Shown here: in pieces, positions 10,282-36,573 of the stretch | Numbering within the stretch: position 1 is the stretch's first letter | Layout: every line of letters starts with the position of its first letter | Assembly (NCBI GenBank): GCA_001314545.1 | Contig: LIHN01000001.1 | Span: 960,180-1,024,179, forward strand | Source: Bacteroidetes bacterium HLUCCA01 | GTDB lineage: Bacteria; Bacteroidota; Rhodothermia; Balneolales; HLUCCA01 | Reading direction: 5' to 3' | DNA: 64,000 bases | The notes under the pieces: model-generated | What the model was told of the DNA's origin: nothing | The model's input: the letters and a program-made list of their open reading frames with translations, nothing else | Databases searched by the model: none | Made by a program: the position numbers and the translations under genes

Positions 10282-13166
10282 TAGATGGATAACTGGATTG
10301 AAAAAAGTATTTGTCGGGGCGCTGAATACCAGGTGGGCCGAAGATCGGCATCCCGATCGGTGAACAATCCCACATACTCATTGACCGCATTGCGTTCGGC
10401 CTGGTCAAAAGGAAGGCGTATTTGCTGACCGGCCCTTCCCGAGGTACTGTACACAGTTCGCTCATTGAGCCGGTTGAGCAGGTTGTTAATCTGAACCCGG
10501 AAATTTATGTCGGTTCCGGCCATGGTAACCCGCTTGTCAAAGGTTGCATCGAGCGTCAGAATAAGCGGCTTGTTCTCGGTGTTGTCGAATATGTTGGCCG
10601 GGAATACCTTGTCTGTACTCACAAATGATGGCGTGTAGGGCTGCCCGGTAGCCAGCTGCCCTACCAGACCAATATTCCAGTTATTGCGAACCCCAACCGT
10701 CAGGTAGGTATTGGCCGTGAGCGTCTGGTCCCAGTTCAGGGGAATAATCTGCCGGTCAACGACAACATCCCCTACTTCCCCGGCCCTGCCCGCTACAATG
10801 ACATCGGCGATGAACGCGGGATTGGAGGAACTGCCCCGGGCATCCTCGTACGTGACATCAAAACCCAGGCTCTGGAGCATGCCGGAAGGTCGGGTCACCA
10901 GCGCTATGGTTCCTCCTTTAATCAGGCCGTAATCGCGGTTGACGGTTCTGAAATAGTCCGTTCCATCGGAGGTAGCCAGAATTTCAAGTCCCAGCAGATT
11001 GCGCACATTTTTGTAGTAGAGGTTGATATCGATTCCAATAAAGTCGGATAGTTGTTGCTGCAGCCCCATTTCATAGTTGACGGTTCGTTCGGGAAGCAGA
11101 TTGGGATTGCCCACGGTGGTCCCCAGCAACCTGCCCTGATTGGTGTTTTCATCCACCGGGTTCTGAAAGAGTCTGCTGTAGGCCGGCATCTGGGTAAAGT
11201 GCCCGTAGGCTACACGGAAAGCGCCGGATTCGGATATGGGGAAGGATATCCCGATACGCGGACTCACATACATTTTTGGCGACGACATGGCCAGGTTGTC
11301 GTCCCGGCCGATAAACTCTGATTGTTGACGGGTGTTGACGATGTAGGGCTGCCTGGTGTCGAAATACTCGAAACGCAGCCCGATTTTGGTGATGATATTG
11401 GAGCCAAGTTCCAGCTTATTCTGTACAAACCAGGCAAACTCCACCGGGTCCTGGGTAAATTCACGGGAGGTGCCGTTGATGTCCTGGGCTACCACACGCT
11501 GCAGCGGAATATCACGCAGGGCCTGCAGATAGGCATCGAAAAAGTCGTACCCTGCAGCGTTCGGGGGGCGCACGGCAACGGCCAGCTGATCCGGATTTTC
11601 CGGACGGACCCAGCCGATGGTAGTCAGCTTGTTGTAGAACTCATTCCAGCGGAACTGCATTCCTGTTTTCAGCTCTGATACGGTGTTCATCTGCCAGGTA
11701 AAATCGCCGGATACAATAAGCTGCTGCTCTTCAAATCGGTTTCGCGAATTCTCCGTACCACCGAAATACAATCCCGTAACCGCATCCGAAGCACTGAAAT
11801 ACTGGTAGCGGGGGTCATCGAAATCATCATAGGCTGCGGAGCCGGAACTGCTGAACTTGTAGGAAGCACGCACATTCAGAAACATATTACGTTCAAACGT
11901 ACGGTGGTACGACACGATTTGCGTAATGCTTTGCGAGGTGTTCTGAAGCCGGCCGTCAGGCGAAAACCGCTTTGCCGTGTTGAAACCCTGTCCTTCCGAC
12001 TGATTCAGCAGAGCACTGTAGACGAAGCGCGACGTGCTGGTAGGACGATACACCAATTTCGGATTGAGAAAGGCTGTGCGCGACCAGCTCATGGGTACAA
12101 TGGCGTTATCACCACTTCCGAAGGTAATGGGATTACCGTTGCTGTCCAGAATAAGCTCACCCGTCGGCGTTCGCGCCGTATCCAGGGCTATGAGGCGGGC
12201 ATCATCCGGACTAAACTGCTCGCGATACCAGAATCGATAGGCATCAATCACAAGTCCGTCATCAGCAATAAAACGACGCTGCCCTTTCAGGTACCCCGTT
12301 TCATCATTATATCTGCCCGTAAAAAAGAAGCCCAGCTTATCGTCACGACGAATAATCGGTCCGCTTGCGGTAAACGTTATTTCGTTGGATTCAAACGGGC
12401 TGTAGCCGGAACCGCCTGTAAAAACGCGGTCGGTACCGGCATGGTAGCCACTGGCCCGATACTGCAGCGTTGTTTCCAGCGATGAAGAAGGGTTACGGGT
12501 ACTGATACTGACCACACCGGATTGAGCACCGCCATGCTCCGCATCAAAAGTGCCGGTGAGAACCTGCAGCTCCTGAACGGATGTGAGTTCCACGTTCACC
12601 GTGTTTCCACCGGCCTGTGAATAGATATCCTGCACGGGGATACCGTCAATCACGTAGGCAACCTCCCGGGTCCGTCCGCCTCGAAAGCTAAAGCCGTCAT
12701 CGGTAGCCACAACCCCCGGCTGAAATCGAACCAGATCATTGAGTCGTTGAACAGGAAGCTCTTCAATAGTTTCGCGCTGCAGATAGGTAGCCGTAGAGGT
12801 ACGGTCGCGCTGCACGATGGGTCGCTCTGCCGTGAGTACAATTTCTTCGGCCTGAAAGGCCTCGGCCCGCATTTCTGAATTCAGGAAGGTAGTACGATTG
12901 GAAAACACCTCGACCTGTTCAATCACCAGGGTTCCGTAACCAACGTAGCTTTTACGAACGGTATAGATTCCCGGAGGAATATTCAGTAATGCAAATTCAC
13001 CGTCCAGATTTGCCACGGCACCACGCTCGAGTTCAACGATAAATACGGTGGCCCCGGTGAGCGGTTCATTCCGGTTGTCTGTGATAGTTCCGCTGATCCG
13101 GCCGGATTGCGCAAATGAACTGTGATACCCCAGTAAGGTCAGGAAAAGAACGAGGAAAATTTTCAT
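10281..13166 (-). CDS. TonB-dependent receptor with CarboxypepD_reg-like N-terminal domain
   Basis: 961 aa outer-membrane receptor. The signal peptide (MKIFLVLFLTLLGYHSSFAQ) is followed by a carboxypeptidase-regulatory-like domain (SGRISGTITDNRNEPLTGATV ... LDGEFALLNIPPGIYTV, residues 20-100). Next come a plug domain (IEELPVQRLNDLVRFQPGVV, FSFRGGRTREVAYVIDGIPV, residues about 130-240) and a long beta-barrel ending in LFSIQLSI with a terminal hydrophobic strand. It lacks a SusD partner and is followed by a TAATG overlap with the cargo-like gene, so the unit is TonB receptor / secreted protein / PorV / PPC protein. The substrate cannot be read from the sequence; the lack of a shared iron-box palindrome argues against simple iron control. 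An inverted repeat at 13269-13295 may be its operator. Confidence 0.9.
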   Translation of the reverse strand: MKIFLVLFLTLLGYHSSFAQSGRISGTITDNRNEPLTGATVFIVELERGAVANLDGEFALLNIPPGIYTVRKSYVGYGTLVIEQVEVFSNRTTFLNSEMRAEAFQAEEIVLTAERPIVQRDRTSTATYLQRETIEELPVQRLNDLVRFQPGVVATDDGFSFRGGRTREVAYVIDGIPVQDIYSQAGGNTVNVELTSVQELQVLTGTFDAEHGGAQSGVVSISTRNPSSSLETTLQYRASGYHAGTDRVFTGGSGYSPFESNEITFTASGPIIRRDDKLGFFFTGRYNDETGYLKGQRRFIADDGLVIDAYRFWYREQFSPDDARLIALDTARTPTGELILDSNGNPITFGSGDNAIVPMSWSRTAFLNPKLVYRPTSTSRFVYSALLNQSEGQGFNTAKRFSPDGRLQNTSQSITQIVSYHRTFERNMFLNVRASYKFSSSGSAAYDDFDDPRYQYFSASDAVTGLYFGGTENSRNRFEEQQLIVSGDFTWQMNTVSELKTGMQFRWNEFYNKLTTIGWVRPENPDQLAVAVRPPNAAGYDFFDAYLQALRDIPLQRVVAQDINGTSREFTQDPVEFAWFVQNKLELGSNIITKIGLRFEYFDTRQPYIVNTRQQSEFIGRDDNLAMSSPKMYVSPRIGISFPISESGAFRVAYGHFTQMPAYSRLFQNPVDENTNQGRLLGTTVGNPNLLPERTVNYEMGLQQQLSDFIGIDINLYYKNVRNLLGLEILATSDGTDYFRTVNRDYGLIKGGTIALVTRPSGMLQSLGFDVTYEDARGSSSNPAFIADVIVAGRAGEVGDVVVDRQIIPLNWDQTLTANTYLTVGVRNNWNIGLVGQLATGQPYTPSFVSTDKVFPANIFDNTENKPLILTLDATFDKRVTMAGTDINFRVQINNLLNRLNERTVYSTSGRAGQQIRLPFDQAERNAVNEYVGLFTDRDADLRPTWYSAPRQILFSIQLSI

Positions 13167-13295: not shown

Positions 13296-13502
13296 AAACG
13301 GCTCCAGTTTAGCATATATGCCAGAAAAGCGGGGTCGAAACGGGTATTCTCCGATGTTAAATTATCATTACAATAGAAAGATCACCGTACTTTGAGGATG
13401 TCAAGACTGTGCTGCCATGGTGCGTTCCCATTTAACTACAGCCCCCGGAACCGACCTTCGATTGCTATTTTCATTCCAGTCCCCCGGGTAGTTTTTTTGA
13501 CC

Positions 13503-13664
13503 CCCGATTTCATTGCGGTATTCCGGCTCCCCGATTCTGTCCGGTACACCCAGCAACGTGTTTTGACTGCCGATTTCATTGCGGTATTCCGGCTCCCCGA
13601 TTCTGTCCGGTACACCCAGCAACGTGTTTTGACTGCCGATTTCATTGCGGCACTCCGGCTCCCC
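13503..13664. repeat. 66-bp tandem repeat, two full copies plus partial third
   Basis: The unit begins near 13503, 13569 and 13635; the same base pattern recurs exactly 66 bp apart (for example the g of cgatttcattgcgg at 13506, 13572 and 13638). Full copies are nearly identical and the third stops after about 30 bases next to the stop codon of the truncated esterase. The core ccggtacacccagcaacgtg resembles the 24.0-kb repeat. The period is divisible by three, so all frames stay open through it, but no start, signal or domain supports a protein. The rest of 13167-13668 shows only the operator-like repeat at 13269. Confidence 0.9.
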
Positions 13665-13668
13665 CGTT

Positions 13669-14112
13669 TTACTCCAGTTCGCGCAGCAGAGCACGGATTT
13701 CCTCCTTTTCTTCCGGAGTGTACATTTCGGAAACCGGCAGGGCTTGCAGCAGGCGTTGCAGTACATCGTCATATTCACGCTGGGTTTCGTAGCGGGCCTG
13801 CATGGTTGACGTAATACCAACCAGTATCGCGGCCGGCATTTGTTCTGTACTGGTCAGATAATCGATAGAACGCAGGATGTATCCGAAACTGCGTTCATTT
13901 TGTCGATCGAATAGCAGAATCACCGGAAAGCGGGTTTGTGAATGGGCAGACTCATAGGCCGCGGGCACCCAGATATCAAGCGATTTTGCGTATCCCAGCG
14001 AGGCGGATACCATAGTAGTATCGGTCATATAACGATAGCTTTCCAGGGATTGCGACCATGCGTATGGGAGACTGCAGCATAATACAATCCATGCGAATAC
14101 GAAATATTTCAT
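13669..14112 (-). pseudogene. Truncated esterase-like secreted protein
   Basis: 147 aa from the ATG at 14112, with a signal peptide (MKYFVFAWIVLCCSLPYAWSQ). The region VSASLGYAKSLDIWVPAAY ... TRFPVILLFDRQNERSFGYILRSIDYL ... MPAAILVGI matches the N-terminal part of the putative esterase family (PF00756, esterase D/enterochelin esterase-like alpha/beta hydrolases). Those proteins continue for about 120 more residues with the GxSxG nucleophile elbow and the Asp/His of the triad, and none of this is present. The frame stops at 13669 right where the 66-bp repeat begins. The last EEKEEIRALLRELE is a helical tail not typical of the fold. Loss of the catalytic half by a rearrangement at the repeat is the simplest reading; a short secreted product cannot be excluded. 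Confidence 0.6.
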
Positions 14113-14327
14113 GGAGGGATGGTGTTCCGGTTTCGTAACGGTTTTGTCATAGTTTAGCATAAAAAACACCATAGTGAAAATGTTCATTCAATTGGTTGTC
14201 TGTGGGTGCAGAACCTCGTATTTTTGGTGTCTGTATTGAATAGCTGAGTAGCAGCGAGGATGTTCCTTAGCGCGAGTGGGACTTGTGTGGGACCAAAACA
14301 CCTGGTTGAAGCTCAAAAATACATTCA

Positions 14328-22812: not shown

Positions 22813-23216
22813 GCTGGGGTTCCGTCGGGGGTGATTGAGGCCTCCGGGCGGTAAGCGTATTTGAAATATGGGGTTCGAATGCGGTATGGGTCAGGCGGAA
22901 GGCAGGTACGGTGACATCTGCGGGGCCGCCTATCCAACAGACTTGCAAAAATACCAATAATGCCGCAGGGATTAAACGATTCTGCGCAGCGAGATGGATA
23001 AATATTGGGGTATGGTCTGTCCGGGTATTCGCAGAACATCCGGCATTCCCGGCACGTGCGTCACCGGCACGTGCGAGTCACCGGCAGCGGATCCGACACG
23101 TGCGTCACCGGCAGCGAATCCGGCACGTGCGTCACCGGCAGCGTCACCGGCACGTAGGGCAACCCCGGATTATCCGGCGTATGCGGCATGCATTGCAGCC
23201 TGGCGGCACGTGCAGG
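22813..23216. other. Spacer with GC-rich repeats, no gene
   Basis: Between the permease start and the end of the response regulator gene. The part 22813-23030 should hold the permease promoter (read on the minus strand); 23048-23160 is the 27-bp repeat block. No open frame in it has a plausible product. Confidence 0.5.
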
Positions 23217-27186: not shown

Positions 27187-27312
27187 GCTGCACGGGTGAT
27201 GAGTACATTTAGTGCGGCAATCTAAACAATTAGTTGTAATTATCTGAATTTGGGTGGGGATAATTTGAAATACCGGATGTAACCGGGTTGTTTCGGCCAG
27301 GGAAACCGTCAA

Positions 27313-27335
27313 GGCACAATTCGGAGTAAGCGGCC
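27313..27335. repeat. Dispersed 23-bp repeat abutting the hmuV stop codon
   Basis: ggcacaattcggagtaagcg followed by gcc matches 35206-35228 in 22 of 23 positions. It ends at the base next to the hmuV stop codon at 27336. In the 35-kb copies this sequence is the 3' end of a sugar dehydrogenase gene. Confidence 0.75.
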
Positions 27336-28175
27336 TTAGCGCACTGCGGCCGCGACCCTATTCCCTGTCGAAGGCATGGTCTTCCCGTGCAATGCAGTGG
27401 ATATAACCAAAGGGCAGTCAAATTCGGGGTGACGAAGGATGTGAACCGGGCAGTCAAAGGCATCACCGATAAGTTCGGGTCTGAAGACCTCATCCGGTGT
27501 TCCCAGCGCATAGAGTCGTCCGTCTTTGAGTATGGTGACTTCATCGGCATACTGGGCAGCCAGATTCAAGTCATGGAGTATCATCAGGACCGCTACATTG
27601 CGTTGCGTCAGTCTTCGGATGTGATGCATAAGGGTGTGCTGGTGCGACATATCCAGACTTGACAAGGGCTCGTCCAGCAACAGGTAACACGGATCGGCAT
27701 TTTCAATGGCATCATGCAGCTGAGCCAGTATGCGGGCGAGTTGAACCCGTTGTTTTTCGCCACCCGACAAGGTCGGATACGAACGGGAAGCCAGGTGATC
27801 TACGCCGGTTTCAGCCATACACGACATCGCGATACGCCGGTCATCGTGCGTTTCAAACCCTCTGGTATGGGGTGTTCTGCCCATCAATACTACTTCAAAG
27901 GCCGTAAATGCGAAGGGTAGCTGCGTATTTTGCATCATAACGGCCCGTTTACGAGCCAGTGTAAGCGGTTTAATATGGCTCAGGAGGGTACCCTCCATGC
28001 AGACCTGCCCGCTGATTGGATGAATATCACCGGTAAGTGTTTTCAGCAAGGTAGATTTGCCTGCTCCGTTTTTGCCCAGAACCGCGCAGAAACTCCCGGG
28101 CTCCAGTTTCAGGTTCACCCTGTCTACCAGTGTTTTGTCTCCAATCTGAACGGTAATATCCCGGGCTTCAAGCAT
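27336..28175 (-). CDS. hmuV: Heme ABC transporter ATP-binding protein
   Basis: 279 aa from the ATG at 28175; a longer frame from 28310 runs into the permease gene and is rejected. Walker A is GKNGAGKST (34-42), the Q-loop lies at MMQNTQLPFAFTAFEVV, the ABC signature is LSGGEKQRVQLARI (136-149), Walker B is CYLLLDEPLSSLD (163-175), and the switch His is in MILHDLNLAAQYAD. Order and length match HmuV/BhuV. It sits 16 nt after hmuU as the last gene of the operon, providing ATP hydrolysis for heme import through the inner membrane. Confidence 0.94.
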   Translation of the reverse strand: MLEARDITVQIGDKTLVDRVNLKLEPGSFCAVLGKNGAGKSTLLKTLTGDIHPISGQVCMEGTLLSHIKPLTLARKRAVMMQNTQLPFAFTAFEVVLMGRTPHTRGFETHDDRRIAMSCMAETGVDHLASRSYPTLSGGEKQRVQLARILAQLHDAIENADPCYLLLDEPLSSLDMSHQHTLMHHIRRLTQRNVAVLMILHDLNLAAQYADEVTILKDGRLYALGTPDEVFRPELIGDAFDCPVHILRHPEFDCPLVISTALHGKTMPSTGNRVAAAVR

Positions 28176-28191
28176 AATTGTGGGTTTAGTG

Positions 28192-29286
28192 TTAAAGATA
28201 ACCTTCCTGATCCCGGTTTCTGAGCAGTAACCAAAGGAAAAACGGCGCTCCGGCAGCCGCAGTAATGACCCCGATGGGTAATTCCGCCGGTGCAGCAAGT
28301 GTGCGGGCAAGAAGGTCTGAAACCAGCAGCAGCAGTCCGCCGAGCACGGCTGATCCCGGCATCAGGAAGCGGTGATCCGGACCAATCCACAGCCGGAGAA
28401 TATGAGGAACGACCAGGCCCACGAATCCGATCATTCCACTGACCGAAACCGCCGCGCCGACAGCCAATCCTACAAATACGATGATGGTTTTTTTCAGCAG
28501 TTCTACGCGTACGCCAAGATGACGTGCTTCCGCCTCTCCCAGAAGTATGGTATTCAATCCCCGTGACAAGGCCGGCAGAATCAGGATTGCAGCCAGTAAG
28601 AAGGGCAAGACAATCCATATGGAGGACCACATAGCCCCTCCCAGACTCCCAAGCGTCCAGAAGGTCAGATCCCGTAATTGATCATCATCGGCCAGGAAAA
28701 TCATAAAGCCGATAATGGCGCCGGCCAACGCATTAACGGCAATACCGGCCAGGAGCATGGTTGTGACCTGCGTCTGTCCGTTTCGGGTAGCCAGGGTATA
28801 GACCAGTACGGTTGCCATCGTTCCTCCGGCAAAGGCGGCCATGGGAACCAGAGCCGGACCGAGGTACGTGATGACCGGCAAGGTTATTTGTGAGAGTACA
28901 ACCATAGCGATGGCGGTTGCCAGTGCGGCTCCGCTGGAGACACCGATAAGACCCGGATCGGCCAGCGGATTGCGGAAAAGTCCCTGCATGGCGGCTCCTG
29001 AAACAGCCAGTGCTGCGCCAACCAGAACCGCCAGAACAACCCGGGGAAGCCGGATGGTTAGCAGGATAGCTTCCTGAACCGGCTGATGCCCGGTTTCCGT
29101 ACTGAATCCCAGCAGATGGGCGAAGATTGCCAGTACAGCAGACGGCGGAATGTTTACCGCACCGATTCCAACGGACAGCACCATCACCCACCCAAGGACG
29201 AGGGTCAAGATCAGCAGTACCCAGATCGACGACATGAACCGGGGGACGGTTCGCCACACGTAAAACCACTGGACCAGGGTGCTCAT
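28192..29286 (-). CDS. hmuU: Heme ABC transporter permease (FecCD family)
   Basis: 364 aa with about ten hydrophobic helices. FecCD landmarks are IRLPRVVLAVLVGAALAVSGAAMQGLFRNPLADPGLIGVSSGAALA in the first half and GEAEARHLGVRVELLKKT plus VSGMIGFVGLVVPHILRLWIGPDHR near the C-terminus. It forms a homodimer in the inner membrane with two HmuV subunits. It starts 6 nt after the hmuT stop. A second ATG 17 codons downstream (MSSIWVLL) also gives a complete first helix. Confidence 0.94.
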   Translation of the reverse strand: MSTLVQWFYVWRTVPRFMSSIWVLLILTLVLGWVMVLSVGIGAVNIPPSAVLAIFAHLLGFSTETGHQPVQEAILLTIRLPRVVLAVLVGAALAVSGAAMQGLFRNPLADPGLIGVSSGAALATAIAMVVLSQITLPVITYLGPALVPMAAFAGGTMATVLVYTLATRNGQTQVTTMLLAGIAVNALAGAIIGFMIFLADDDQLRDLTFWTLGSLGGAMWSSIWIVLPFLLAAILILPALSRGLNTILLGEAEARHLGVRVELLKKTIIVFVGLAVGAAVSVSGMIGFVGLVVPHILRLWIGPDHRFLMPGSAVLGGLLLLVSDLLARTLAAPAELPIGVITAAAGAPFFLWLLLRNRDQEGYL

Positions 29287-29292
29287 GCTATT

Positions 29293-30240
29293 TTAGTTGG
29301 ATGCTTTTTCGTGTGATAGTTCGGCATCGGGGTGCAGCAGTTCGATGAGATCCAGAACAGCCCGGCCCAGTCGCGGACCGAAACCAAGCAGGTAAGCACC
29401 GTCCATGCTGTGAATACGTCCGTTTGATGCCGCATTGGTCAGGGCAATTCCCGGCGTTTGCAGAATGGCCGACCTCCCCCCTGCGCTGCGGAGTCCGGAG
29501 TCCATCATCAGAATAATATCCGGATTGGCTGCGACTACCGCTTCCGGGGTCAATGGTTTATACCCGCTGAAATCGCTGAAGGCATTTATTCCGCCGGCCA
29601 GTGCGATCATCGTACTGGCAGAAGTCTGATCTCCGGCAACCATGAGGGTGTTGGGTCCGCGGGCATAAATGAACAATACAACAGGTCTGTTGCTGATCTG
29701 TTCACGAAGCATAGCTGCCGTATCCAGTTCCGCGCGTATAGCCTCACTGAGGGCGCGGGCCTGCTCTTCCCTGCCAAGAACCTGACCCAGTACGGAAATA
29801 CGTTCCAGGGCCGCATCCACGCTCTCACCGGCCGGCAGCATCAGCAAGGGTGTTCCCGTATTTCGGATCTGCTGTATCGCGGTTTCAGGACCGGCAGCAC
29901 CACTGGCCAGCACCAGTCCCGGAGAAAATGAAAGGATGCCTTCTGCATTCAGATTTCGGGTGAACGACACCTTGGGCAGACCGGCGGCAGCGCCTGGATA
30001 CATGCTGGATTCGTCAACCGCTATCAGATTGTCACCCGCATCCAGAGCAAAAATGGTCTCAGTAACCGCGCTGCCAACCGATACAATGCGGGATGTATCC
30101 GCAACAGAAACCCGGACCCCGTCGGTGCCCGTGATTTCTGTCTGAGCAGCGGTGAACTGCGTTACGGTGAACAATAGCAAGGCCAAAACCATAGAAAATA
30201 GTATTGCCGGGTTCGCTTGATATACGCTACGCTGGTTCAT
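29293..30240 (-). CDS. hmuT: Periplasmic heme-binding protein
   Basis: 315 aa, class III (helical backbone) substrate-binding protein with an N-terminal signal (ILFSMVLALLLFTVTQFTAAQ). Family points are RIVSVGSAVTETIFALDAGDNLIAVDESSMYP, LPKVSFTRNLNAEGILSFSPGLVLASGAAGP, and the C-terminal GFGPRLGRAVLDLIELLHP. The Tyr in DESSMYP is at the position of the heme ligand in HmuT-like proteins. It receives heme from the outer-membrane receptor and passes it to HmuU. The start overlaps the hmuS stop (ATGA), so the two are coupled. Confidence 0.92.
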   Translation of the reverse strand: MNQRSVYQANPAILFSMVLALLLFTVTQFTAAQTEITGTDGVRVSVADTSRIVSVGSAVTETIFALDAGDNLIAVDESSMYPGAAAGLPKVSFTRNLNAEGILSFSPGLVLASGAAGPETAIQQIRNTGTPLLMLPAGESVDAALERISVLGQVLGREEQARALSEAIRAELDTAAMLREQISNRPVVLFIYARGPNTLMVAGDQTSASTMIALAGGINAFSDFSGYKPLTPEAVVAANPDIILMMDSGLRSAGGRSAILQTPGIALTNAASNGRIHSMDGAYLLGFGPRLGRAVLDLIELLHPDAELSHEKASN

Positions 30241-31307
30241 GCTGTCATTTGTTTTTTTAGTTCGGATGTCAGGTCGGTCCAGGATGCAAGTTCTGGTTTA
30301 CCCGGTTTACGGGCTCCAAAGAAGGTTACAATCTGTGCTCCCTCCGCATCGAAAAGCTCCAGGGAGGTGACCGGTCCATCATCGGTGGGTTTTTCAACAA
30401 TCCAGGTCTCTGCTATCAGGTCTTCGCGAAGATGCAGATTAAAACGAGGGTCCATGATATTGACCCAGTTTTCCATGACCTTAATTTTTTGTACCGGACC
30501 GGAGTGTATCTGAATCATTCCGCTGTTGCCCACAAAAACCATGATGGGTATCTGCCGACCGGAGGCAAGGAGGAGCATTTCCTGTGTAGTTTCACGCTTT
30601 ACCTTCCAGCTGAAGCTGCCTTCGGCCAGTTTGAGCGCATCGGTTCGACCGATTTCAAAGTCGCGGAGCATGGGAAAGAAGTCGTGCGTATCCCGTAAAG
30701 CAGACCAGGTACGAAGCAGGGCATCTTTATCAATATGCTCTGCCGGCCGTGTGGTATCCTTTTCCAGATGCCTGGTAATTTCGATAAAGGGCGATTGATC
30801 AGGATGCCGGAATTCCTCCACCAGGTCATTGAACTGCCTGGCACGGTCAGCATCTTTCAGATAAATTTTATGAACCGCATGACCTTCTTTGTCGAAGAAT
30901 TGCAAGCTCAGCAATGTTCCGCGAGCGTTTTCGACGGGAAGGGCGAACGCGAAGCCCCATCGTTGGTGGAATACCCGCAGGTCAATTTCTTCATCGAGCA
31001 CCAGTCCGGCGAATCCCTTGAAGGATACGTTTCTGTAAACGCCCGTTTTTTCGTGTACAGCAGCCTCATTGCGGGTTAGTGCCATTACTTCGCCCAGCCG
31101 CTCAAGCTTGCTGAACAGTACGCTCCAGTCGGTGTTCAGCCGGACCGTCTGCTTTCCGTCGCAGGCTGAGGCAACCAGTTCTGCTTCGCTGACTCCCAGC
31201 GTGCGGGCTATCTGCAGGGCGCGCATGCGGGGATTAGCCTGTTTGGTCTGTTCCCATCGTTGCCGTAGGCTTTCAGCTGCCGACATCGGTTGAATGGTAG
31301 TTTCCAT
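30237..31307 (-). CDS. hmuS: Cytoplasmic heme-handling protein (HemS/HmuS family)
   Basis: 356 aa, two repeated halves as in HemS/ChuS/PhuS. The first half has the heme-ligand motif TRNEAAVHEKTGVYRNV (His about residue 90) and EEIDLRVFHQRWGFAFAL; the second half has the related MVFVGNSGMIQIHSGPVQKIKVMENWVNIMDPRFNLHL. The N-terminus ARTLGVSEAELVASACDG is typical. No signal peptide, so it acts in the cytoplasm, receiving imported heme for storage or opening of the ring. It follows hmuY after an 82-nt gap that holds a strong hairpin (31335-31375). Confidence 0.93.
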   Translation of the reverse strand: METTIQPMSAAESLRQRWEQTKQANPRMRALQIARTLGVSEAELVASACDGKQTVRLNTDWSVLFSKLERLGEVMALTRNEAAVHEKTGVYRNVSFKGFAGLVLDEEIDLRVFHQRWGFAFALPVENARGTLLSLQFFDKEGHAVHKIYLKDADRARQFNDLVEEFRHPDQSPFIEITRHLEKDTTRPAEHIDKDALLRTWSALRDTHDFFPMLRDFEIGRTDALKLAEGSFSWKVKRETTQEMLLLASGRQIPIMVFVGNSGMIQIHSGPVQKIKVMENWVNIMDPRFNLHLREDLIAETWIVEKPTDDGPVTSLELFDAEGAQIVTFFGARKPGKPELASWTDLTSELKKQMTA

Positions 31308-31389: not shown

Positions 31390-32028
31390 TCAGTTCAGAT
31401 CGCGCAGGCCTTCCGTGCGCTGTAAGGCGTAGCGAAAGGTGTAGTAACGACTTTCAGGCCGAGTCTGCAGATTGGCGAACGCTTCACTGGACGTATCCGG
31501 ATTGTCGTAGTAGTAACTGATGATTTCAACTTTTGCAAAGTGATTGGCATCGGCGGTTTGTAATACGATGGTGACGTTTTCACGGGGCAGGACGGCGAAA
31601 GGCGGCATGGCCTGCGCCGGATTGTAGGTATACCACCCGTTGCCGCTGCCGTCTGGAATGGCCAGCACCTCTGCTGAATCGGTATTATATCCTGCAGACG
31701 GAGCGATGGTCACCTGCTGAAACGGAACATCCAGCACTACTGCTCCAGCGCTTCCGGGTCCGCTCACTCCGCTGTTCACCAGAATAGTGGTACCCCGGAA
31801 GGCCAGGTCCCAGTTTGCGGATGCCGAATCGCTGCGCGGAACAACGAGTCCGCTGCGGAGACTGAAAAAAGTAAACTCGCCGTTATCACCCACGGCGGAA
31901 AGGTTCTCGATGGTTTTAACATCAATCTCAGATTCCGGTACGTCTGCGCCGGTGGAGCTATCGCTGCATGCAGTGATAACGATGGTGGTGGCTGCAAGCA
32001 GCATCGGAAGGATAAATCGATAGTTCAT
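31390..32028 (-). CDS. hmuY: HmuY-family heme-binding lipoprotein
   Basis: 212 aa from the ATG at 32028. The lipoprotein signal ends VITACSD (Cys21). The body fits the HmuY family: EFTFFSLRSGLVV, SANWDLAFRGTTILVNSG (the W-D-(I/L)-AFRG turn is the family hallmark), GWYTYNP and HFAKVEIISYYYDN, then RYYTFRYA at the C-terminus. HmuY is surface-exposed, takes heme from host or environmental hemoproteins and passes it to its TonB receptor, here encoded 34 nt upstream. The His pair used by the Porphyromonas protein cannot be assigned by eye; H-F in ANHFAKVE is one candidate ligand. Confidence 0.88.
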   Translation of the reverse strand: MNYRFILPMLLAATTIVITACSDSSTGADVPESEIDVKTIENLSAVGDNGEFTFFSLRSGLVVPRSDSASANWDLAFRGTTILVNSGVSGPGSAGAVVLDVPFQQVTIAPSAGYNTDSAEVLAIPDGSGNGWYTYNPAQAMPPFAVLPRENVTIVLQTADANHFAKVEIISYYYDNPDTSSEAFANLQTRPESRYYTFRYALQRTEGLRDLN

Positions 32029-32062
32029 AATGGGTATTATTGTTGCGTGTTGTTGGATTTGT

Positions 32063-34348
32063 TTAAAGGTTAAGTTCCGCCTGGATATACCACAGTCGAC
32101 CAGGTAGATGCGGTTGAAAAACATGGGTGTAGTCCAGGGCGTTGTCCAGGCCCAGCTGCACATTCAGACTGGATCCAAGTTTTCGGGAGACCGCCAGATT
32201 CCATACCGTAAAGCCGGATTCAAACTCGTTGTCGTCGGCATAACCGTTTCCATTGCGGTCAATCATGGCGTAAGGGCCCCGATAAATCCCTCTGAGGCTT
32301 CCTCCCCAATTTCGATGGTTGGCAAATACACGCAGACTCAGGGCGTGACGGGAACGGTTAAACAGGGGTTCATAGCGGACACTGCTGCGTTGCACCAGTT
32401 CGCCCTGTGCATCCTGCAGCGTTTGGGTCTCACTGATCCTGGAGCGGGCGTCCAGAAGCTGGTAACCCAGAGAGCCCCCCAGGGATTCACGATAGGTGAA
32501 CTGGATGGCCGACTCCAGGCCCTGTATACGGACCTGATCAACATTGAAATAGGTAAATACAGACTGGCCATTGGTCCGCCGTGCAACAGGTGCCACCTCG
32601 ATGAGGTCTTGCACAGCATTATGAAACATATTTACGCGCAGACGAACCGAGGGGGTCATATCCACATCAAAGCCCGAATTTACGGCCCAGGACGACTCGG
32701 CTCTGATGTTATCCAGGTTGTCTGCTGGGATGAGAATTTCTGCTAACGTTCCCTCGGCAGCGAGTCGCCGGATACCATCGGCAACGGTAGCCGATCCGAA
32801 AACGCTGTATCCGGACGTGGAATTCGTGAAATCCAGGAATAGCTGTCGGAATTCCGGGGCTTTGAATCCCCGGCCCAATGAAGAACGAATCTGAATCCAT
32901 GATGCCGGACGGTACCGAAATGATACCTTGGGACTTACCTGATTACGGTATTCACTGTGGCTATCATAGCGTAGTCCGCTGGTCAGGTTGAGGTCGCCTG
33001 ACGGGGACCAGGTATGCTGAAAAAAAGCAAATTGCGTCTGAAAATCAGGCTGCGACGGATAACGCTGTGCGTTGAGACGTTCATCGATCAACCCGAAGCC
33101 GCCCAGGAATTGATGGGCTGTACCGGAGTTATAGGCAGCACGAATCTCACCGCGCTGATGAAATTGTCTGAAGCGATCGGTCGAAAACAGGGTGCCCGTT
33201 TCTTCGGCTCTGGACGTTGTCTCCATAACAAAATAGGCATACATCCAATCGGCCATGAGCTCCAGTCCTGCTGCGGTGCGATAGACGATTTCAGTGCCCA
33301 GGGTCAGATCTTGCTGTTGGTCTCGGGTGACAAGCAGTACGGAACGGTTTTCAGGCTGTTGAATCAGGGTGTTATTGGAGAGCTGCTCGTCAAACCAGCG
33401 TGCACGAGCTGAGACCGTCAGGTTATCGGAAACGTCCAACGATCCGCGGTAATTAAGTGTATAGTTGGCAAAATCAGGAATGGTTTTAGAGACTGCCCCG
33501 GAGTTGCGACGATAACCGTCTGAGCGATGGTGGTTTACTGAAATTTTATTGCCAATCTGGCGGGTATTGTACGTGATATCGCCACTGAGGTCCGAGGTAT
33601 TATGAGTTCCGTAGCGGGTGGTTAGACCGGCACTCAGGGTTTCATCACCTGCGGTATCCGTAATTATGTTGATGACACCGGCCAGTGCGTCACTGCCCCA
33701 CAGCGCTGACGAAGGGCCTTTGACAATTTCGATTTGCCGGACGTTGCGTACGCTTATTCGCGTAAGGTCCAGGGTACCTGCTGTTCGACCGATTACCGGG
33801 TTGCCATCGATGAGAATCAGGGTGTATTCCGGATCAAAACCCTGCATTTGTACGCCGGTACCATGATTATTGACAAGCTGAAGTCCTGCCTGTTCACCCA
33901 GAACATCACTAAGCCGCATGTTGCCGGATTGCCGTATTTCAGCCTGTTCAATAACCTGAACCGGTATGGAAACATCTTCAAGGTCGCTGCGGGTACGGGT
34001 TGCGGTGACTACAAGGGTCTCACTTCGATGTCGGACAGGCTGCAGTGTGACATTCAACGTATCAGCGGACGACCACGGCTCAGGTATCGTTGCTGTGTGT
34101 TCCTGGTAACCGTGCCGGGTAAATGTGAGCTGAATGGGTGAACGGGGATGACCGGAGGTGTCAACGCGAAATTGACCGTTTCGATCCGTGTACTGCATAA
34201 ACTCCGTTTCCACCAGGTTAACCTGCACGTTCCGGAGTGGCTGATCATCGGTGTCGCGTACATACCCTGTAATATGTTGTGCTGCCGCAGGCATCGCAAG
34301 GACGCCACACAGCAGCACCTGTAAAATAATCCTGAACATTAACGGCAA
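32063..34348 (-). CDS. hmuR: TonB-dependent heme receptor
   Basis: 761 aa, first gene of the heme operon. Signal peptide MFRIILQVLLCGVLAMPAAAQ (starting at the internal Met4 or the ATG at 34348), a carboxypeptidase-regulatory-like domain (HITGYVRDTDDQPLRNVQVNLVETE, 24-105), a plug with ETLVVTATRTRSDLEDVSIPV and VKGPSSALWGSDALAGVINIIT, then a 22-strand-type barrel. The barrel contains SLGRGFKAPEFRQLFLDFTN, the counterpart of the FRAP/YRAP box found in heme receptors; the usual NPDL/NPNL box is not obvious. Neighbours hmuY and hmuSTUV settle the substrate as heme. A DtxR-like palindrome lies 42 bp upstream of the start. Confidence 0.9.
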   Translation of the reverse strand: MPLMFRIILQVLLCGVLAMPAAAQHITGYVRDTDDQPLRNVQVNLVETEFMQYTDRNGQFRVDTSGHPRSPIQLTFTRHGYQEHTATIPEPWSSADTLNVTLQPVRHRSETLVVTATRTRSDLEDVSIPVQVIEQAEIRQSGNMRLSDVLGEQAGLQLVNNHGTGVQMQGFDPEYTLILIDGNPVIGRTAGTLDLTRISVRNVRQIEIVKGPSSALWGSDALAGVINIITDTAGDETLSAGLTTRYGTHNTSDLSGDITYNTRQIGNKISVNHHRSDGYRRNSGAVSKTIPDFANYTLNYRGSLDVSDNLTVSARARWFDEQLSNNTLIQQPENRSVLLVTRDQQQDLTLGTEIVYRTAAGLELMADWMYAYFVMETTSRAEETGTLFSTDRFRQFHQRGEIRAAYNSGTAHQFLGGFGLIDERLNAQRYPSQPDFQTQFAFFQHTWSPSGDLNLTSGLRYDSHSEYRNQVSPKVSFRYRPASWIQIRSSLGRGFKAPEFRQLFLDFTNSTSGYSVFGSATVADGIRRLAAEGTLAEILIPADNLDNIRAESSWAVNSGFDVDMTPSVRLRVNMFHNAVQDLIEVAPVARRTNGQSVFTYFNVDQVRIQGLESAIQFTYRESLGGSLGYQLLDARSRISETQTLQDAQGELVQRSSVRYEPLFNRSRHALSLRVFANHRNWGGSLRGIYRGPYAMIDRNGNGYADDNEFESGFTVWNLAVSRKLGSSLNVQLGLDNALDYTHVFQPHLPGRLWYIQAELNL

Positions 34349-34515: not shown

Positions 34516-35097
34516 ATGAAAAACAAGTATGTCAAACGTTCACGAATTAGCGAGGCCAAATTCAGGGAATTGCTTCGCTTCTTTTCCCTGGATCTGACTT
34601 CAACGCAAATTGCCAAAATCACCGGTCTGAACAGAAACACTGTGAACCGGTACCTTCATGAAATCCGTTGCCGAATCGAGCATACCAATCACGTAAAATC
34701 AAGCAGTATAATTTCCCCGGAACCTGATACTGCGGATGACCCGATCTGTATGCTGATCAGGGAAGAGCGTGGTGTTATCTTTACCGCAGTTATCGGTTCA
34801 AATACCCTGTTTTCGTTGGATTTACAGGACATAGGATTTGATTTGGTAATCAATACAGCAGACGAGTCGCACCGCTTTATCGGTTTTAGAAACCCGGATC
34901 CGGAAATGCATCGCAAGAAAATAAACCGGATCGAAAACTTCTGGGGTTTTGCCTGTTTACGCCTGAGTAAATTCAAGGGGCTGCACCCTGCAACGGTACG
35001 TTTACATGTTGCTGAGTGTGCTTTCCGTTACAATCATCGAAAAGATGATTTATATCCGATTTTGCTGCAGATTATCCGTAATAATCCGCTGTTTTAG
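34516..35097 (+). CDS. Degenerate IS1595-family transposase (193 aa)
   Basis: The ATG at 34516 begins MKNKYVKRSRISEAKFRELL, the usual opening of IS1595/ISXO2-like transposases, with an HTH at 25-50 (TSTQIAKITGLNRNTVNRYL). The C-terminal KKINRIENFWGFACLRLSKFKGL ... CAFRYNHRKDDLYPILLQIIRNNPLF is also typical, and Glu140 is the last DDE residue. Full-length members are near 230 residues; here the segment with the first catalytic Asp (EVDExYFG) and most of the second (TDGWxxY) is missing, leaving a short linker. Transposition activity is therefore unlikely. No terminal inverted repeats were found. Its divergent position to hmuR makes either an old IS remnant or a recruited DNA-binding protein possible. 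Confidence 0.75.
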   Translation: MKNKYVKRSRISEAKFRELLRFFSLDLTSTQIAKITGLNRNTVNRYLHEIRCRIEHTNHVKSSSIISPEPDTADDPICMLIREERGVIFTAVIGSNTLFSLDLQDIGFDLVINTADESHRFIGFRNPDPEMHRKKINRIENFWGFACLRLSKFKGLHPATVRLHVAECAFRYNHRKDDLYPILLQIIRNNPLF

Positions 35098-35171
35098 TCA
35101 TGTACCAGTAACAGTCACGAAAAATAATGTGTGGTTCTTGACTACTTTTCTTCTCAGAGGGGACGTTCGAG

Positions 35172-35315
35172 TCCGCAGTAACCGGCCGCTGTTTTTTACG
35201 ACGCCGGCACAATTCGAAGTAAGCGGCCGCTGGTTTTTACGGGGCCGGTACAATCCGAAGCAACCGACCGTTGGTTTTTACGACGCCGGCACAATTCGCA
35301 GCAGCCGGCCGTTGG
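35172..35315. repeat. 41-bp tandem repeat of a gene 3' end including its stop codon
   Basis: Copies at 35172-35212, 35213-35253, 35254-35294 and the source copy 35295-35315 plus coding bases. Read on the minus strand each unit gives (N/S)GRLLRIVPA(S/P) and a TAA stop, which is the C-terminus of the sugar dehydrogenase that ends at 35278. The differences between units are mostly at third codon positions. The period of 41 is not a multiple of three, so the copies are not in one frame. Confidence 0.9.
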
Positions 35316-36573
35316 CCTCGTCTGTGAGTACATACAGGTGACCGTCAGGACCCTGGCGCACATCGCGCACCCGCGCACCTATGGTCAGCTTTTCCTCACC
35401 GGAAATGCTCGTCTCGTTGAGTATAATCCGGCGGATCTCGCCACTGACCAGCCCACCGCTGAACAGATTCCCCTGCCAATTCGGAAAATCATCGCCGTAA
35501 TAGAAGGTTAGTCCGCTGGGCGCCTGGGCGGGCGTCCACACGATGAGGGGGTCTTCCATACCGGTTTGGGTAGTGGTGCGGGTGATGCGGGGGTAGTGAT
35601 ATTCCCGGCTATACGTAGCTTCCGGCCATCCGTAATTACCCCCGGCTACCAGCAGATTCAGCTCGTCTCCGCCCCGGGCGCCGTGTTCACTGGCCCAGAC
35701 CGTGCCGGTAACCGGGTCAACGGCAAGTCCCTGGATGTTCCGGTGTCCGTACGTCCAGATTTCGGGCAGGGCGTCGGCGGGTAGGGCATCGGTGCGGGGT
35801 GCCGGTGAGGACGATGCATCACCGGTGGACGCTGAAACCGGCGCGGGTGATACACCGTTTGTATGTTCGGAGGTTGAACCGTAGGACACATCCCCGGAGT
35901 GTTCTGTGCCGGTTGCGGTCGATGCCGTTGCCGGCGGCACGGGTTGCCCCCTATCGGTCAGATGCACCACCGTACCCAGGTGATTGGTCGTATTCTGGGC
36001 CTGCTCTCGGATCCATTCCCCGTCGAAACGCAGGTAGTTTCCGCCATCGGCCACACTCATAAGCAGGGTGCCGTCCGGCAGCCAGGCCAGTCGGGAGCCG
36101 AAGTGCTGGTTTCCGGTCTTGGCTACGTTGGTTTCGAAGAGTACCTGTACATCGGTTAGCTCCCCCTGGCGGAATTGCCCGCGGGCCAGGGTGGTGCGGT
36201 TGGCATCGTCATTGCCGGCGGCATAGGTCAGGTAAACCAGGTTGTTTTCCGGGAAGTCCGGATGCAGGGACACGTCCAGCAGTCCGCCTTGTCCGCTGGC
36301 GAAGACCTCGGGCACATCGGATACCGGTTCGGGCTGCACGACGCCATTGCGCACCCATCGCAGCCGACCCGGTCGTTCCGTGATGAGCATATCGGCATCG
36401 TTCAACCAGACCATAGCCCAGGGGTGTTCCAGACCATCGAGGACAGGCTGCAATTGCCATCCTGCGGCTTCCGGTACATCGACTGACAGTCGTACCGGTC
36501 CTTCCGGAGCTTTGCAGGCAACTAAAAGCAGAAGCACTCCGGCGAGGGTGAGGGTTAATTTAGCGGGCATCAT
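35278..36573 (-). CDS. PQQ-dependent sugar dehydrogenase-type lipoprotein (YliI/GDH-B family)
   Basis: 431 aa. The lipoprotein signal ends LLLLVACKA (Cys20). The six-bladed propeller of soluble aldose dehydrogenases is clear: LEHPWAMVWLNDADMLITERPGRL, GQGGLLDVSLHPDFPENNLVYLTY, NQHFGSRLAWLPDGTLLMSVAD, the active-site-like WTYGHRNIQGLAVDP, SEHGARGGDELNLLVAGGNYGWP and VRDVRQGPDGHLYVLTDEANGRLLRIVP. The conserved His of the first and second motif groups is present. It oxidises sugars or related compounds with PQQ at the membrane surface; the substrate is unknown. Residues about 208-262 are a Ser/Thr/Ala/Pro-rich low-complexity insert not found in the family. The 3' end is the source of a tandem repeat. 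Confidence 0.9.
   Translation of the reverse strand: MMPAKLTLTLAGVLLLLVACKAPEGPVRLSVDVPEAAGWQLQPVLDGLEHPWAMVWLNDADMLITERPGRLRWVRNGVVQPEPVSDVPEVFASGQGGLLDVSLHPDFPENNLVYLTYAAGNDDANRTTLARGQFRQGELTDVQVLFETNVAKTGNQHFGSRLAWLPDGTLLMSVADGGNYLRFDGEWIREQAQNTTNHLGTVVHLTDRGQPVPPATASTATGTEHSGDVSYGSTSEHTNGVSPAPVSASTGDASSSPAPRTDALPADALPEIWTYGHRNIQGLAVDPVTGTVWASEHGARGGDELNLLVAGGNYGWPEATYSREYHYPRITRTTTQTGMEDPLIVWTPAQAPSGLTFYYGDDFPNWQGNLFSGGLVSGEIRRIILNETSISGEEKLTIGARVRDVRQGPDGHLYVLTDEANGRLLRIVPAS

Follow-up and report, generated by a model that had tools for sequence, protein, structure and literature searches.

Copies of a dehydrogenase gene end on both sides of a heme-uptake locus as a candidate insertion footprint

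Within the 64-kb window (i.e., the whole stretch of DNA that was analysed), which belongs to a 1.07-Mb contig of a 3.37-Mb genome, the 3' end of an intact glucose/sorbosone dehydrogenase (GSDH)-type gene is repeated in tandem directly downstream of the gene. A further copy of this end lies beyond a complete heme-uptake locus, which is absent from two sibling genomes, and the copies have diverged from each other in the manner of coding sequence. We consider it probable, with moderate rather than high confidence, that array and remote copy together are the footprint of a DNA insertion at the GSDH 3' end. The same-genus relatives of the source genome (G000) used for comparison are Balneolales/Bacteroidetes MAGs.

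The array, the remote copy and the locus between them

TRF reports the array at 35177-35315 with a period of 41, 3.4 copies and a score of 187. The first-pass annotation had described it as a 41-bp tandem repeat of the GSDH 3' end including the stop codon, and both this description and its coordinates are confirmed by TRF and by reading the minus strand. Of the three additional complete copies it had listed, however, two are complete with a TAA stop, while the third is partial and has no stop. The GSDH gene itself is intact (431 aa) and shares its C-terminus GRLLRIVP with the same-genus relative G002. The gene, the array units and the remote copy are listed below.

35278..36573, minus strand: GSDH-type gene, source of the repeat (ORF; Pfam PF07995, E=2.2e-115)
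35273..35313, minus strand: unit 1, the GSDH gene's own end, NGRLLRIVPAS and stop plus 5 bases, with the TAA at 35280-35278 (TRF, minus-strand reading)
35232..35272, minus strand: unit 2, NGRLLRIVPAP and stop plus 5 bases (TRF, minus-strand reading)
35191..35231, minus strand: unit 3, SGRLLRIVPAS and stop plus 5 bases (TRF, minus-strand reading)
~35172..35190, minus strand: unit 4, partial, SGRLLR without stop, unrelated sequence beyond, near the junction of the insert (sequence)
27309..27335, minus strand: remote (fifth) copy, GGCCGCTTACTCCGAATTGTGCC followed by TTGA, i.e., GRLLRIVP and a TGA stop (genome search with the array; pattern match)

Translation of the array as one protein was rejected given that its period is not divisible by three and that each full copy carries a stop, which agrees with what had been noted in the first pass.

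The remote copy, which the first-pass annotation had missed, was found at 27313-27335 when the genome was searched with the array. It is located 7.9 kb from the array on the same strand and matches unit 3 at 22/23 positions (96% over 23 bases). Furthermore, it is in frame with the gene of the heme ABC ATPase and directly abuts the stop codon of that gene. A coding-degenerate pattern for GRLLRIVP matches the 3.37-Mb genome at four positions only, i.e., units 1-3 and the remote copy; all four lie within 8 kb on one strand, and they flank the heme locus. Among 40 relatives, the pattern is observed in only two genomes with a single match each, namely in G002, where it is the GSDH gene's own end, and in G024. 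The reversed pattern, used as control, has no match in the 41 genomes. A viral-contig match (L143), the only one of its kind, falls in a reading frame antisense to a viral gene and was discarded as a chance hit.

Between array and remote copy, the following genes are encoded.

34516..35097, plus strand: IS1595-transposase-derived gene, divergent from hmuR (NF033547 match below cut-off, last ~45 residues)
32063..34348, minus strand: hmuR-like TonB-dependent receptor (Pfam Plug, TonB_dep_Rec)
31390..32163, minus strand: HmuY-like lipoprotein (Pfam PF14064)
30237..31307, minus strand: HemS/ChuX heme-handling protein (Pfam PF05171, E=1.5e-79)
29293..30240, minus strand: heme ABC periplasmic binding protein (Pfam PF01497)
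28192..29286, minus strand: FecCD-family permease (Pfam PF01032)
27336..28310, minus strand: heme ABC ATPase with a tail a bit longer than that of its homologues (NCBIfam NF010068, above cut-off)

That is, the locus (~7.8 kb) holds a complete set of hmuR, Y, S, T, U and V together with the divergent IS1595-derived gene. The layout from the IS1595-like gene through hmuR to hmuV is identical in three other Balneolales genomes (G073, G095, G098); two more (G051, G005) have the receptor, HmuY and the divergent IS1595-like gene in common with it and differ in the remaining genes. HemS is present in 35 of the 245 genomes of the class and was found neither in the two same-genus genomes G001 and G002 nor in G003 and G004 of the same family. 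Given the shared hmu layout and the patchy occurrence of HemS, we regard the insert as a functional unit with patchy distribution. On plasmids, only relatives of the locus with less than 60% identity were found.

The inner edges of the insert are tight, i.e., the ATPase stop touches the remote copy on one side, and on the other side a TAGTCA...TGACTA inverted repeat ends ~30 bases or less from unit 4. Conserved in the homologues L161-L163, this inverted repeat (35097-35144) starts within the IS1595-like gene's stop codon and may be a terminator.

Five other Balneolales genomes have a homologue of the IS1595-derived gene, 37-52% identical, in the same divergent position beside hmuR. The gene retains an N-terminal helix-turn-helix-like part; the DETY and YTDE catalytic motifs that L165, an intact IS1595 homologue, carries have no counterpart in it. 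It does not qualify as an IS1595 insertion sequence, whose transposase requires DDE/DDN catalytic residues, as these motifs are missing; nor were the boundaries of such an element recognised around it. Judging from its sequence and position, the gene is likely a domesticated transposase that regulates heme uptake.

Divergence of the copies

Pairwise comparison of units 1-3 yields ratios of synonymous to non-synonymous differences of 6:1, 4:1 and 6:2, and the changed positions are distributed over the three codon positions as 2, 1 and 7. This bears out the earlier statement that the copies keep the amino-acid pattern and differ mainly at third positions. The synonymy statistics draw on few sites only: 8/10 changed positions of units 1-3 are synonymous, compared to one-third expected (P = 0.003 from simulation), and in the 23-bp core, which was compared over all copies, the seven variable sites (3, 6, 7, 9, 12, 15 and 21) are synonymous throughout (hypergeometric P = 1.5e-4; if synonymous sites are defined as widely as possible, P = 1.3e-3). 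Within this core, 6/7 third positions vary, and first and second positions are otherwise constant. When neutral change was simulated, none of 200000 runs retained GRLLRIV in all copies, a figure that is too strict since a star tree was assumed. With respect to the gene end of G002, unit 2 shows 3 differences in 27 and unit 1 shows 5 in 27. Since change has nearly saturated the third positions and has left the other positions almost untouched, it is unlikely that the copies were non-coding through most of their divergence.

The alternative that survives best, although we consider it rather doubtful, is replication slippage at the GSDH 3' end followed by neutral decay, with the remote copy being a target duplication or a chance remnant of a separate event that inserted the heme locus. 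Slippage or unequal crossing-over is expected to produce a constant 41-bp period with 5 non-coding bases in it, and gene ends do duplicate in tandem: in Runella sp. MFBS21 (L088, ~11585-12045), the last codons and the stop of a small c-type-cytochrome-like gene form, together with a GC-rich hairpin, a 121-bp tandem repeat of 3.8 copies. Both repeats consist of head-to-tail copies with stop codon. The Runella copies, however, are near-identical, and the differences in their coding part are largely non-synonymous, which matches the prediction for slippage. The GSDH copies, in contrast, show synonymous divergence, i.e., nearly saturated third positions next to barely changed first and second positions, and have a distant fifth copy. 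With differences concentrated at synonymous sites in units 1-3 and at all seven variable core sites, slippage with subsequent neutral decay fits poorly; the first-pass annotation, which had disfavoured simple slippage, is supported in this regard. Furthermore, slippage gives no explanation for the 22/23 copy across the heme locus.

We deem improbable a second alternative, by which population-level unequal recombination created the array, i.e., many strains of this species would carry gene-end arrays, and exchange between diverged strains would mix ends that are coding in one and non-coding in another, such that no insertion is needed for the array. Coding-type divergence and exact period would both follow, and synonymous states are indeed partly shared between units. 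However, the array is found in 0/128 other genomes of the order, i.e., neither in the two siblings nor in the 126 others, and the remote copy remains unaccounted for.

Insertion at the GSDH 3' end

With the remote copy and the heme operon that separates it from the array taken into account, the copies are interpreted as an insertion footprint rather than as a local repeat. Following this explanation, the heme-uptake locus would have entered at the last codons of GSDH. The incoming DNA would have provided GSDH with a new in-frame end, and the older end (GRLLRIVP with TGA stop) would have ended up beyond the insert, which would thereby be flanked by direct repeats of the GSDH end. The tandem ends beside GSDH would be more such ends, each of them recently a working GSDH end in some lineage, and they probably derive from diverged lineages. 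Later unequal exchange between the tandem ends may have set the 41-bp period.

Two agents are conceivable for such an insertion. It may have been a site-specific recombinase that acted in trans or has since been lost. Alternatively, imported DNA may have recombined homologously, anchored at GSDH, and may have been joined illegitimately to the recipient's old end. Either agent would leave the imported end beside GSDH and the old end past the cargo. While the arrangement of the copies is directly observed, we infer that it was the insertion that made the flanking repeats. Several points count against this explanation. Integration alone gives no account of three ends exactly 41 bp apart, the remote copy has just 23 bases in common with unit 3, and the synonymy statistics draw on few sites; the results given below on recombinases, on gene order in the siblings and on other GSDH ends weigh against it as well.

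With regard to mobility genes, the family search covered the tyrosine recombinases (PF00589), which have nine matches in the genome, none of them in or near the window. No recombinase is among the annotated genes of the insert and its neighbours, the ORFs of the insert are the heme genes plus the IS1595-like remnant, and no tRNA is located near the array. Since no integrase was found, the proposed insertion works like an integrative element and is not assignable as a member of this class.

Streptococcal ICEs that reside at the 3' ends of rplL, guaA and rpsI are flanked by direct repeats of 12-54 bp, some of which are exactly the gene's 3' end (PMC4701971). Similar to integrative elements in general (ICEs, IMEs, islands), the insert beside GSDH has copies of the target 3' end as direct repeats at its two edges (23 bp here vs. 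12-54 bp in the streptococcal ICEs), with units 1-4 on one side and the remote copy in direct orientation on the other; the target gene is intact and the cargo consists of adaptive genes. In contrast to such elements, the insert shows no match to a tyrosine recombinase or another mobility gene, its ends have diverged in a coding-like way, and three to four ends are lined up in tandem with a period of 41 bp.

Homology-anchored illegitimate recombination during DNA uptake would leave an imported gene end with its cargo beside the recipient's old end and would do so without an integrase; multiple ends are not its usual outcome. The GSDH locus likewise would have an imported end and cargo placed by an old end, with no integrase needed. 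It differs in its multiple ends, and no donor turned up in which the heme locus adjoins GSDH.

A more far-reaching version, to which we give little credence, is that integrase-free cassettes dock repeatedly at the GSDH 3' end, each one arriving with a synonymous variant of this end. The array would then record successive acquisitions, with the heme locus being one of them.

If the insertion explanation is true, a whole heme-uptake locus came to lie next to a metabolic gene and left it undamaged, with a short intergenic repeat as the mark of this process, and the synonymous differences among the stacked ends preserve, like a fossil record, the origin of each end. Integrase-less islands could then be scanned for by looking for gene-end peptides with stop that are repeated downstream, at a distance and with synonymous divergence.

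It is very improbable that the array is under selection as a regulatory RNA or as a bidirectional terminator for the IS1595-like gene and GSDH, which converge here. The array does occupy convergent intergenic space and, read on the plus strand, shows GCCGGC inverted repeats as well as short T runs. However, on neither strand does it fold better than shuffled sequences (z-scores of 0.08 and -0.07), it contains no terminator-like site and no Rfam match above gathering score, and its variation tracks codons rather than a stem. Least likely of all is an assembly artefact from collapsed or mis-joined strain variants, given that the copies are distinct, span ~140 bp in total inside the 1.07-Mb contig and are accompanied by a remote copy that represents independent sequence.

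Relatives and further gene-end repeats

Both siblings, G001 and G002, have a single GSDH end and no array. The first-pass annotation had named a longer gene in related genomes, whose C-terminus spans the copies, as the case that would speak against a repeat; no such gene is present among the relatives examined, where orthologues end with GRLLRIVPD and stop, GRLIRIVPE and stop, or similar. Its suggestion that the copies were recruited from a paralogue did not hold for the source genome, in which no other gene has a GRLLRIVP end and the other listed GSDH homologue is only ~50% identical. No empty site of the insert was identified in the siblings, which have a single end and no HemS, since the neighbours of GSDH are arranged differently in both of them and the downstream sensor kinase is without clear orthologue in G002.

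Of the 81 GSDH loci checked, none outside the window shares this arrangement at the 3' end; a general or recurrent insertion hot spot at this gene end is thus unsupported over these loci. Our literature search found no relevant report on tandem gene ends with synonymous divergence.

A partial gene-end duplication was observed in a proteobacterial MAG (L120), where ~22/24 bases of the GSDH end are repeated 61 bases downstream. Two further tandem repeats are located within the window. One has a 66-bp period (13495-13664, 2.6 copies, 96%) and begins a few bases past the stop of the ORF at 13669-14187 on the minus strand. The other is an intergenic 27-bp repeat rich in CCGGCACGTGCGTCA (23049-23155), with genes for a response regulator and an ABC permease on its two sides.
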